Shown: piece by piece, positions 15,334-18,449 of the stretch
Numbering within the stretch: position 1 is the first letter of the stretch
How the letters are laid out: each line of letters opens with the position of its first letter
Assembly: GCA_012523575.1 (NCBI GenBank)
Contig: JAAYIF010000050.1
Coordinates: 1-47,952, forward strand
DNA from: Clostridia bacterium
Lineage (GTDB): Bacteria; Bacillota; DTU086
DNA length: 47,952 nt
Reading direction: 5' to 3'
Notes under the pieces: generated by a model
Told to the model about the DNA's origin: nothing
Databases searched by the model: none
Seen by the model: the letters and a program-made list of their open reading frames with translations, nothing else
Position numbers and translations under genes: made by a program

Positions 15334-16341
15334 ATGGCTGTTATTACCGTATCAAGGCTGTTTGGAAGCGGCGGTGAATTTGTGGCTGAGATACTTTCTC
15401 AGGCTACGGGATTTTTGCTGCTTAATAAGAAAACCCTTCATAAATATATTGGGGAGCATGATCTGCCCCAAATGCGCCTTGACTGGATAAATGAAATTTC
15501 CCCCAGGAGTGTTGATGGTTTGGAAAAGGAACGGGTTGAATACGTTAATACGTTAAGGGATACAATAACTGACCTTTCGCGAAATAGGCATGTTATCCTG
15601 CTGGGACGCGGAGGTCAGTTTCTTTTTATGGGAAGCAAGGAAGCCGTTCATATTAAAATTGTTGCTTCCCTTGAGGCAAGATCCGCCAATATTCAAAAAA
15701 GATTTAACGTGGATAAGGCTACGGCCCTAAGGCTGATAAATGAGAAGGACGCGGAGAGGGAAGCTTATACCTACTATTTTCATCGGGGAGATTGGAATAA
15801 CCCTGAAATCTACGATCTGACCATAAATACCACAAGGATATCTTTGGGAGAGGCGGCGGAGCTGATACTTAATTTTTTAAAGCAGAGGAAAATTATTTCC
15901 CGTAAAAAATTTGAAAAAATCCTTGATAAACTGGAGGAAGCTGCTAAGGAGAAGGAAAAGATTGCTGTTAGTTTTGAAAGGGCGGCGGATAGTAGCCTTA
16001 GGGGAAAACCAAAGAAATTTGCCAATAAAAGCGAAGAAGAATTTGCCCGAATCTTGGATTATTATCAAATTAAATATCTATATGAGCCCACTACCTTCCC
16101 CCTTAAATGGGACAGTGAGGGTAATATAGAAAGCGCCTTTACTCCCGATTTTTATTTTCCCGATTTTGATCTTTATATAGAGCTCACCACTATGAAACAG
16201 GAATTGGTTACCAAGAAAAACCGAAAGGTTAGGGAGTTGAAGAGGATTTATCCCGATGTTAACATTAAACTTTTTTACCGAAAGGATTATAAAAAGCTTT
16301 TGGAGAAGTTCGGTATTGATCCTGAGGAGAATATAGATTAG
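15334..16341 (+). CDS. Cytidylate-kinase-like domain fused to a PD-(D/E)XK nuclease-like domain
   Basis: The 335 residues split into two parts. Residues 1 to about 195 form a cytidylate-kinase-like P-loop protein: ITVSRLFGSGGEFVAE (P-loop near 11-14), then HVILLGRGGQFLF, RSANIQKRFNVDKATA and DLTINTTRISLGEAAELIL. A charged helical linker (about 197-225) leads to a C-terminal domain with SEEEFARILDYY and TPDFYFPDFDLYIELTT, then KVRELKRIYPDVNIKLFYR. This fits a PD-(D/E)XK or Vsr-like fold with Asp and Glu as candidate metal ligands. The GTG-free ATG start has GGGGGAT upstream. It lies directly upstream of the RNA/hpt locus. Whether it phosphorylates nucleotides or cuts nucleic acid is unknown. 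Confidence 0.75.
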   Translation: MAVITVSRLFGSGGEFVAEILSQATGFLLLNKKTLHKYIGEHDLPQMRLDWINEISPRSVDGLEKERVEYVNTLRDTITDLSRNRHVILLGRGGQFLFMGSKEAVHIKIVASLEARSANIQKRFNVDKATALRLINEKDAEREAYTYYFHRGDWNNPEIYDLTINTTRISLGEAAELILNFLKQRKIISRKKFEKILDKLEEAAKEKEKIAVSFERAADSSLRGKPKKFANKSEEEFARILDYYQIKYLYEPTTFPLKWDSEGNIESAFTPDFYFPDFDLYIELTTMKQELVTKKNRKVRELKRIYPDVNIKLFYRKDYKKLLEKFGIDPEENID

Positions 16342-16359: not shown

Positions 16360-16376
16360 AAGTATACGGTATACTT
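16360..16376. promoter_or_regulatory. Palindrome upstream of RNA copy 1 promoter
   Basis: AAGTATAC-G-GTATACTT, a perfect inverted repeat of 8-bp halves. Its right end is 12 bp before the -35 box, exactly as for the palindrome of RNA copy 2. It may be an operator or activator site. Confidence 0.6.
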
Positions 16377-16388
16377 GTTTGATATTGC

Positions 16389-16417
16389 TTTACAAATTAA
16401 TACTTACTTGCTATACT
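16389..16417 (+). promoter_or_regulatory. Promoter of structured RNA copy 1
   Basis: TTTACA (16389-16394), 17 nt, TATACT (16412-16417). The predicted start, 7 nt downstream, coincides with the first base of the closing stem of the RNA. Confidence 0.75.
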
Positions 16418-16423
16418 TAAATT

Positions 16424-16566
16424 AGCCCCGAGAGGTCGGAAAGGAAATTATCACGAAGGGCTGGGTCTTCCGGAAAATTGCTTCTATCCAGTGGTGTGAG
16501 CTGGGGGAAGTGGGAACCCGAGAAGATCTAGAGTAGTGATAAGGACCGGGAAGATCACTCGGGGCT
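16424..16566 (+). ncRNA. Unassigned structured RNA, copy 1 (upstream of hpt)
   Basis: A 143-nt element aligned along its whole length with copy 2 at 17187. Closing stem P1 is AGCCCCGAG (16424-16432) with CTCGGGGCT (16558-16566). P2 is TTATCAC (16448-16454) with GTGATAA (16536-16542), flanked by GGTC/GACC. P3 is GGGTCTTC (16463-16470) with GAAGATCT (16522-16529). P4 is a hairpin, 16480-16491 with 16501-16511. Conserved unpaired segments include GGAAAGG, CGGAAAA, GGGAACC and CCGGGAAGATCA. A GATTTTTT tract follows P1. It could be a riboswitch leader of hpt (28 nt downstream) or a separate small RNA. I could not match it to a known family. Confidence 0.8.
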
Positions 16567-16593
16567 GATTTTTTAGCCATAAGAGGGAATGTC

Positions 16594-17118
16594 ATGGGTA
16601 TGGAGCAAAAAGGGAAGATCATTATAAGTGAAGAGGAAATCCAGGGAAAGGTTAGGGAGCTTGCTGGGCAGATTTCCAAAGATTATGAGGGATTAAATCC
16701 CATTATAATTACCGTACTTCGGGGTGCGGTTTATTTTATGGTGGATTTGACCAGGTACCTTACCATTCCCCACCGCATTGATTTTTTAGCCATTTCCAGT
16801 TATGGACCTGCTGCCCAGACCGGGGGTGTTAGAATAACCAAGGATCTGGATTTGGATATCCACGATGAACATGTATTGATTTTAGAAGATATTGTTGATA
16901 CCGGTCTTACTCTTCATTATCTTCTTAGAATATTAAAGGAAAGGGGTCCCGCCAGCATTAAAATCTGTACCTTTCTTGACAGGGCGGCCCAAAGAATCGC
17001 CGATCTTCATATTGATTACCGGGGTTTTGAGGTGGGCGAAGCTTTTGTTGTGGGTTATGGGCTTGACAGGGATGAAAAATTTAGAAATCTGCAATACATA
17101 ATGGCTGTGGAGGAATAA
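16594..17118 (+). CDS. hpt: Hypoxanthine (guanine) phosphoribosyltransferase
   Basis: Purine salvage: hypoxanthine or guanine plus PRPP to IMP or GMP. At 174 residues it is typical. The PRPP-binding motif is VLILEDIVDTGLTLHYLL; also visible are ITVLRGAVYFMVDLTR (the pyrophosphate loop), the flexible loop around DFLAISSYG, and the GYGLDRDEKFRNL purine-site block. ATG at 16594 follows GAGGGAATGTC; ATG at 16600 is also possible. It sits alone between two copies of a structured RNA, each with its own promoter, so its expression is probably set by RNA copy 1. It is commonly next to tilS and ftsH in Firmicutes, which is not so here. Confidence 0.93.
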   Translation: MGMEQKGKIIISEEEIQGKVRELAGQISKDYEGLNPIIITVLRGAVYFMVDLTRYLTIPHRIDFLAISSYGPAAQTGGVRITKDLDLDIHDEHVLILEDIVDTGLTLHYLLRILKERGPASIKICTFLDRAAQRIADLHIDYRGFEVGEAFVVGYGLDRDEKFRNLQYIMAVEE

Positions 17119-17140
17119 AAAAGTATACCGGTATACTTTT
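17119..17140. promoter_or_regulatory. Palindrome upstream of RNA copy 2 promoter
   Basis: The core AAGTATACC-GGTATACTT (17121-17138) extends with two A and two T to a perfect 22-bp palindrome, starting 1 bp after the hpt stop codon. The core ends 12 bp before the -35 box, the same spacing as at copy 1. It could double as a weak terminator hairpin for hpt. Confidence 0.6.
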
Positions 17141-17150
17141 ATAAAAGTGC

Positions 17151-17179
17151 TTTACAAAGGTTTTTTTCAATGCTATTAT
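17151..17179 (+). promoter_or_regulatory. Promoter of structured RNA copy 2
   Basis: TTTACA (17151-17156), 17 nt, TATTAT (17174-17179), with the expected start at the first base of P1 of RNA copy 2. The -35 box and spacer length are identical to those of copy 1. Confidence 0.75.
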
Positions 17180-17186
17180 AAAAGCA

Positions 17187-17327
17187 AGCTCCGAGAGGTC
17201 GGAAAGGGAATTATCATGAAGGTAATGGGTTTTCCGGAAAAATCGTTTCTGTCCAGCCCGGCTGGAGGAAGCGGGAACCTGGAAAATCCCAGAGTAGTGA
17301 TAAGGACCGGGAAGATCACTCGGAGCT
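17187..17327 (+). ncRNA. Unassigned structured RNA, copy 2 (downstream of hpt, upstream of metF)
   Basis: A 141-nt homologue of copy 1. P1 is AGCTCCGAG (17187-17195) with CTCGGAGCT (17319-17327). P2 is TTATCAT (17211-17217) with GTGATAA (17297-17303). P3 is GGGTTTTC (17227-17234) with GAAAATCCC (17282-17290). P4 is 17244-17256 with 17262-17273. Base changes between the copies keep pairing in P1, P3 and P4. P1 is followed by TTTATTTTTCGTTTTTT, so it may terminate its own transcript. A possible second hairpin (GCCGGTAC near 17354 with TTACCGGGC near 17398, then seven T) lies before metF, 184 bp downstream; it may be the expression platform. No gene is seen in 17119-17510. Confidence 0.8.
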
Positions 17328-17510
17328 TTTATTTTTCGTTTTTTGCTTTATTGCCGGTACCCATGTCCAAAATATTAAAGAAAGGAATACGGCCTTATTA
17401 CCGGGCCTTTTTTTATTAGTGTAAAACCGGTGGAGGCGGTGGAGGGATATTCTGATTTACTGGAGAAAAGATAAACTTAATTTATAAATTAGAACTGCAA
17501 CTTGGAATAG

Positions 17511-18449
17511 ATGGGGGGCGTGAAAATTGTGTCTTTAAATACAGGCAGCACCTTGGAAAGGCTCCTTAAGGAAGGGCATTTTCTGGTAACAGCGGAGATC
17601 GGACCGCCGAAGAATGCCGATGCTTCTGTATTGGAAGAAAAGGCAAGAATGCTCAGGGGCTTTATTGATGCTGCCAATATTACGGATAACCAAACGGCAG
17701 TGGTACGCTTATCCAGTATTGCTTCGGCGGTGCATATTTTAAAAGCGGGGATCGAACCGGTTATCCAGATGACGGTGCGGGACCGTAACAGAATTGCTTT
17801 GCAAAGTGATCTCTTAGGGGCTTATAGCCTCGGAATTAGAAATGTTGTATGCATGAGCGGAGATCATCAAGTGATTGGCAATCACCCTGACACCAAAGGG
17901 GTATATGATTTAGATTCCATACAGCTTATTAAAGCAGTGAGAAACATGAGGGATAAAAAAGAATTCCTTAACGGAGAAATAATTAAAGGCACCGCTCCCT
18001 GCTTTTTTGTTGGTGCTGTGGCAAGTCCTTTTCTGCAGCCCGAAGAAATGAATTTAATACGCCTTGAAAAGAAGATTAGGGCAGGGGCGGATTTTATCCA
18101 GACCCAGTGTATCTACGACATGAGAAAATTTGAATGCTGGATGGCTCAGGTCAGGGAGCTGGGACTTAGCCACCGGGCGTATTTTCTTGCGGGACTTATG
18201 CCGTTAAAGTCCCCAAGGGTAGCCCGCTATATGCAGGATAATATCCCTGGAATTGAAATACCGGAAACCATAATCAGGAGGATGGAGCGGGCAGGGGATC
18301 CGGCTAAGGAAGGGATAAAACTGGCTGTGGAGCAAATCCACTGGCTCAAAACCATTGAGGGACTGCATGGGGTTCATATTATGGCTGTGGGCTGGGAAGA
18401 AGTGATACCCGAGATAGTGGACAGGGCCGGCTTAACACCCAGGCCATAG
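17511..18449 (+). CDS. metF: Methylenetetrahydrofolate reductase (MetF-type)
   Basis: Reduces 5,10-methylene-THF to 5-methyl-THF in the methyl branch of the Wood-Ljungdahl pathway or in methionine synthesis. The TIM-barrel family blocks are seen: LVTAEIGPPK near the N terminus, ANITDNQTAVVRLSS, IQMTVRDRNRIALQSDLLGA, a flavin-region GIRNVVCMSGDH, and GADFIQTQCIYDM. At 312 residues it is like the short acetogen-type MetF. Start choice is uncertain: ATG 17511 follows GGAATAG, while GTG 17529 has GGGGGG upstream. It is 32 bp before fhs, likely one operon; no metV or acs genes are in the window. Confidence 0.88.
   Translation: MGGVKIVSLNTGSTLERLLKEGHFLVTAEIGPPKNADASVLEEKARMLRGFIDAANITDNQTAVVRLSSIASAVHILKAGIEPVIQMTVRDRNRIALQSDLLGAYSLGIRNVVCMSGDHQVIGNHPDTKGVYDLDSIQLIKAVRNMRDKKEFLNGEIIKGTAPCFFVGAVASPFLQPEEMNLIRLEKKIRAGADFIQTQCIYDMRKFECWMAQVRELGLSHRAYFLAGLMPLKSPRVARYMQDNIPGIEIPETIIRRMERAGDPAKEGIKLAVEQIHWLKTIEGLHGVHIMAVGWEEVIPEIVDRAGLTPRP

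Follow-up and report, generated by a model that had tools for sequence, protein, structure and literature searches.

Several described bacterial systems resemble parts of the locus analysed here. The small RNAs RsmX, RsmY and RsmZ as well as CsrB and CsrC are free-standing paralogues, which carry repeated GGA motifs, possess an upstream palindrome and occur in genomes containing csrA. In the rsmX, rsmY and rsmZ genes, a palindromic upstream activating sequence is present, which is a potential GacA site (PMC2375449). Purine riboswitches include, for example, the xanthine-sensing NMT1 motif and the guanine class. 6S RNA forms a long rod with one large open bubble, and B. subtilis and similar Firmicutes possess two copies of it. 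Furthermore, rare candidate motifs of narrow distribution have been described, orphan structured RNAs that covary and are restricted to single lineages (PMC11109978, PMC8632094).

We studied two copies of an element residing on either side of hpt in a stretch of 47,952 nucleotides (the window). Like the Rsm and CsrB/CsrC RNAs, the element is paralogous and preceded by a palindrome, but its fold is a single long rod rather than a set of hairpins. With the purine riboswitches it shares hpt as a neighbour and, in copy 1, a helix P1 followed by a U-tract; however, it is a rod and not a junction, it gave no Rfam match and a stand-alone copy exists. 6S RNA is similar in length and likewise a long rod, but the loops of the hpt-flanking RNA are closed purine mismatches. 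Its identity with 6S RNA was rejected, as all four genomes studied contain one 6S RNA each at another locus (4/4 above the cut-off), while the element did not match RF00013. From the rare motifs, compared by means of Rfam only, it is distinguished by its promoter, operator and stand-alone context, which point to a trans-acting RNA. We favour, with a probability of about 0.55, the reading that the element represents a family of regulated, trans-acting and probably protein-binding small RNAs, whose expression, activator site and protein partner we infer.

Copy 1 covers positions 16424..16566 (143 nt) and copy 2 positions 17187..17327 (141 nt), both on the forward strand, as judged by fold, alignment and covariation. 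The earlier note had reported that the two elements align from end to end and fold alike, and this was reproduced: they are 82% identical over their whole length (E = 1.4e-30), and minimum free energy folding yielded the same unbranched rod of -67.8 kcal/mol for copy 1 and -64.8 kcal/mol for copy 2. Shuffled sequences averaged -42.9 and -40.7 kcal/mol (z = -6.77 and -7.33), and none of 200 shuffles equalled the respective copy. Thus, the stability goes far beyond an effect of composition.

The rod opens with P1 (9 bp, AGCYCCGAG/CTCGGRGCT), an A-A mismatch and P2 (GGUC/GAUC). A purine loop of 5x5 nt (GGAAA/GGGAA) is separated by two G-C pairs from a 3x3 loop (RAA/GGA). Next come P3 (UUAUCAC/GUGAUAA, 7 bp) and a GAAGG/AGAGUA loop, and distally a longer helix with a second loop of the GGAAA(A)/GGGAA type and a variable end loop, which differs among the copies in both sequence and length. 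In copy 1, the fold places GGAAA (16438..16442, + strand) opposite GGGAA (16548-16552), an internal loop in which five consecutive G-A/A-G pairs could form. Beside UUAUCAC/GUGAUAA, the strand GAA (16455..16457, +) faces AGUA (16532-16535); this module is invariant in all seven copies known to us and is loop-E/sarcin-ricin-like, the likeness being one of sequence only. The 3′ strand of P1 and P2 is formed by the 17-nt block CCGGGAAGATCACTCGG (16546..16562, +; 17307-17323 in copy 2), which is identical in 7/7 copies and could alternatively fold on itself into a hairpin of 5 bp that competes with P1. The partner strand of P1 and P2 varies slightly across the copies.

The window belongs to genome G000. 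G001 was the only other genome of the same genus searched, and together with G002 and G003 these were all genomes of the class that were searched (n = 4). The earlier note had suggested looking for further homologues with covariation. Five additional copies were found, giving a total of seven in all four genomes, usually two per genome and 141-204 nt in length. A BLAST search with copy 2 yielded the pair in G001, one full copy in G002 and portions of two copies in G003, which turned out to be full-length elements when the loci were read. The homology in G002 and G003 is therefore independent of the covariance model, and each of the copies in these genomes folds alone into the rod.

A covariance model of the seven copies was run against 399 phylum genomes, among them the four of the class, and did not disclose any more copies (0 of the 395 others). 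With lax filters, nothing convincing was detected in 39 relatives, the single match spanning 34 nt (E = 0.13). Scanning 84,980 species genomes for a 19-base pattern returned three of the four known assemblies (Clostridia bacterium 41_269, Clostridiales bacterium DTU086 and Clostridia bacterium AS23ysBPME_144), together with chance matches which were rejected by the model. The viral contigs, plasmids and phages searched contained no convincing homologue, and in the sequences searched there were no relatives outside the class. The RNA family appears to be confined to one clostridial lineage. In agreement with the opinion that the element belongs to no known family, a search of the window against Rfam 15 (4227 families) gave no match at the gathering score and only chance matches at E values up to 10. 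The homologous loci did not match any family either, and the c-di-GMP-I riboswitch in L050 was recovered as a positive control. This known riboswitch (c-di-GMP-I-GGC, L050:3588-3670, 70 bits) lies on a contig that also carries a stand-alone copy of the RNA. The element is thus a new RNA family, set apart by means of Rfam 15 only, of a known general kind, the structured bacterial small RNA. Protein coding was rejected, because the lengths of 141-204 nt are out of frame with each other and conservation tracks pairing.

Compensatory changes had been claimed for P1 (C:G to U:A) and the inner helices, and they proved to be real. Two-sided changes affected 16 of 45 base pairs and 28 cells of the alignment (shuffles: 9.0 pairs and 10.7 cells), which comprises seven RNA copies from four species, so that sequence counts do not equal independent events. 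Paired cells amounted to 94.6% compared to 88.2% in the shuffles, and the covariation score was 0.380 versus 0.246, a value as high being reached by none of 500 shuffles. When the partner strand was slid by 1-3 columns, pairing fell to 34-52%. On the + strand 296/313 cells were paired, on the complement 247/313, the difference being due to G-U pairs; this better pairing indicates that the RNA corresponds to the + strand. Within the outer rod, 21/28 unpaired and 30/44 paired columns were invariant, although a set of four species may overstate how conserved single positions are. The unpaired columns are as conserved as the helices, which points to selection acting on the loops as such. That a conserved structured RNA exists is highly probable.

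That each element has its own promoter starting at P1 had already been proposed, and both promoters were found to end 6-7 nt before P1. The control region, i.e. an operator and its spacing, was missing from the earlier note. Copy 1 is preceded by the 17-bp palindrome AAGTATACGGTATACTT (16360..16376, centre at -56) and, 12 bp past this operator, by the promoter TTTACA-17-TATACT with TG before the -10 region (16389..16417, +). The corresponding elements of copy 2 are the 18-bp palindrome AAGTATACCGGTATACTT (17121..17138, centre at -57.5) and the promoter TTTACA-17-TATTAT, again with TG before the -10 region (17151..17179, +). All seven copies exhibited a palindrome of 17 or 18 bp, AAGTATAC(C)GGTATACTT or more generally AAGTATAC(N1-2)GTATACTT, centred at -55.5 to -57.5. 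It is followed in every case by 11-12 bp, TTTAC(A/T), 17 bp and a -10 region with TG before it, as in extended -10 promoters of sigma-A, and then by 6-7 nt to P1. Pattern searches of the four genomes revealed perfect operator palindromes only upstream of the RNA copies, and no paper containing the exact operator strings was found in the literature. The position of the centre near -56 and the constant gap to the -35 region suggest that the palindrome is the site of an activator.

The four genomes were searched for patterns consisting of the right operator half-site and TTKAC at the spacing of the RNA copies. Beyond the RNA copies, matches were obtained at a zinc-ribbon gene, two Nramp genes, a membrane protein gene and one site which is probably a chance match. 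The zinc-ribbon gene encodes a CxxC protein of 55 aa without a curated family and has the operator upstream in both G000 and G001; in G000 the site lies between proA and nadD (L081:1501-1518, G000:C11), while the homologue in G001, situated before nadD, has a tandem operator (L107:~598-640, G001:C23). Tandem sites, partly masked, were also seen in the proA-nadD gap of G002 (L079:1501-1538, G002:C204). G003 contains tandem genes for Nramp-family transporters (L108 and L086; G003:C221:275 and 2259), each with a half-site 12 bp upstream of a TTGAC -35 box. The membrane protein of G003 (415 aa, L106, G003:C141:8086) adjoins an HPP-like gene and gave no Pfam match; its gene shows the half-site and the promoter spacing. 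Since the zinc-ribbon and Nramp genes share the block of operator and promoter, the RNA seems to be part of a small regulon. There is a hint that this regulon concerns metals, given by a few promoters and, for Nramp, by sites in one genome. Two candidate regulators were rejected: a PadR gene located beside one operator occurs in G001 only, apart from one weak match in G003, and an Rrf2 gene lies beside a site with two mismatches in G000, which has no counterpart at an orthologue and is thus attributed to chance.

The gene context reported previously (hpt, an MTHFR-like metF, fhs) was confirmed. The purine-salvage gene hpt for hypoxanthine phosphoribosyltransferase (16594..17118, +; TIGR01203, 195 bits, cut-off 150 bits) lies between the RNA copies. 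It is flanked upstream by a gene for a cytidylate-kinase-like protein with a conserved C-terminal region (15334..16341, +) and downstream by metF (17511..18449, +; start codon provisional). The kinase gene neighbours hpt in G001 and G002 as well. In its product, the domain (residues 3-167) is followed by approximately 170 conserved residues without a Pfam match, including a TPDF...YIELTT stretch which is reminiscent of PD-(D/E)xK nucleases.

Six of the seven copies reside near the kinase gene, hpt or metF, and the module occupies four different positions. The only copies found directly before hpt are G000a and G001a, copy 1 in either genome of the genus, at a distance of approximately 30 nt and with U6-U7 right after P1. 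In the window, this tract, GATTTTTT (16567..16574, +), ends 20 nt before hpt and resembles, together with P1, a terminator, at which transcription may end. For these two copies, P1 and the U-tract could attenuate hpt in cis. A reading extending this to a riboswitch or attenuator, in which P1 and the U-tract terminate transcription and the state of P1, stabilised or opened by a purine or one-carbon ligand, controls hpt and metF, draws further on the other copies upstream of metF or the kinase gene, on the highly conserved loops and on the invariant 3′ block with its ability to form a competing hairpin. We consider it rather unlikely. A 5′-leader placement is true for copy 1 of G000 and G001 but untrue for a copy of G003 (L050:708-911), which has no same-strand gene downstream, the next gene being convergent. 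Moreover, intrinsic terminators separate the RNA from the next gene at three of the seven copies (G000b, G002 and G003a). Between copy 2 and metF there is the terminator-like hairpin GGCCTTATTACCGGGCC followed by TTTTTTT (17391..17414, +; -7.4 kcal/mol), between the RNA and metF of G003a the strong terminator GCCGCCGATTCGGCGG-TTTTT, and between the RNA and the kinase gene of G002 GGGCAT...ATGCCC-TTTT. In G002 the RNA lies before the kinase gene and not before hpt, and the kinase-hpt gap of 12 nt holds no RNA, which indicates that the RNA block has shifted relative to the genes. A dedicated operator common to genes of other functions does not fit the riboswitch either, and the alternative hairpins are far weaker than the rod (-3.6 and -4.4 kcal/mol) and show no covariation, although the columns of the second alternative helix are invariant and hence uninformative in this respect. 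The earlier note had left the choice between a riboswitch and a pair of small RNAs. Of these, the small RNA pair gained support from the stand-alone copy, the terminators and the operator, while the riboswitch lost ground, and the suggested purine, PRPP or folate ligand found no support in view of the same stand-alone copy, the intervening terminators, the placement in G002 and an operator that also serves genes for metal transporters and a zinc-ribbon protein.

A PyrR-like switch (RF00515) was also tried and rejected. The enzymes encoded by hpt and PyrR are related phosphoribosyltransferases, and the 5′ segment CCGAGAGGU resembles the GAGAGG loop recognised by PyrR. The short segment did not give a match even at E values up to 10, the alternative hairpins lack covariation, and the local hairpin of this reading is broken in one copy.

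The trans-acting small RNA, on the other hand, explains all copies, whereas a riboswitch would explain at most some, in view of the stand-alone copy, the terminators and the changed positions. At the sequence level, the traits of a small RNA gene are present: an own promoter in 7/7 copies, terminator-like sites and a copy standing alone. We propose a rod of 140-200 nt, closed by the 9-bp P1, for which a separate sigma-A promoter would set the transcription start at P1, termination occurring either at P1 plus the U-tract or at a terminator close by. One regulator shared by the copies, probably an activator, would bind the palindrome at about -56 and switch on both RNAs along with a few protein genes (zinc-ribbon and Nramp transporters). 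The RNA would then act in trans through the invariant purine-rich internal loops and the loop-E-like module, most likely by binding a protein, which it would titrate or scaffold, and less likely by base-pairing. Conserved purine loops point to a protein or another kind of receptor. Some observations speak against an action in trans. A pure trans-acting RNA does not need the proximity of most copies to the kinase gene, hpt or metF, which vertical synteny could explain; copy 1 of both G000 and G001 stands, with its terminator, directly before hpt; and four species only are represented.

A base-pairing regulator of mRNAs that responds to stress or metals, in outline like RyhB or FsrA, would agree with the operator common to the Nramp genes of G003 and the CxxC zinc-ribbon gene of the genus and with the layout of a free-standing transcript. 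This is unlikely, however, because the rod is almost fully paired and the variable terminal loop offers no conserved seed for antisense pairing. In addition, the conserved unpaired bases are purines and unable to pair with Shine-Dalgarno sequences, and the link to metals stems from a few promoters, the Nramp sites coming from one genome.

Decidedly unlikely is an operator-controlled, protein-titrating pair of RNAs in a Firmicute that would be an independent counterpart of Gac/Rsm, in which one activator would govern the RNAs jointly with genes for metal transport and a zinc-ribbon protein, and stacks of purine mismatches would sequester CsrA or another protein. Very unlikely is a Firmicutes counterpart of RsmY/RsmZ, whose GGA motifs bind CsrA and whose palindrome is a GacA-type upstream activating sequence. 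The presence of csrA in 4/4 genomes, the 6-10 GGA motifs per copy and the arrangement of paired small RNAs with an upstream palindromic site, which recalls the rsmX, rsmY and rsmZ genes, fit such a sponge. However, the GGA number is barely above that of composition shuffles in most copies (p = 0.001-0.38), the motifs are located outside hairpin loops, namely in stems or internal loops, and ANGGA occurs only 1-3 times per copy. The palindrome also differs from the GacA site. Furthermore, in both loci read (G000 and G001) csrA adjoins fliW, the product of which is the CsrA antagonist in B. subtilis (PMC4894983). A mobile or structural DNA repeat without RNA function, suggested by the module turning up in several places, with as many as two copies in a genome, is barely credible, as base pairs and G-U pairs are kept on one strand only, promoter and operator are conserved, the copy number is low (1-2) and neither flanking repeats nor a transposase were seen.

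Rfam 15 lacks this well-supported structured RNA family. An exceptionally clean control region, together with a first outline of a regulon, opens the function of the RNA to direct testing. Should a protein be titrated by it, the RNA would provide a Gram-positive example of a design familiar mainly from proteobacteria.
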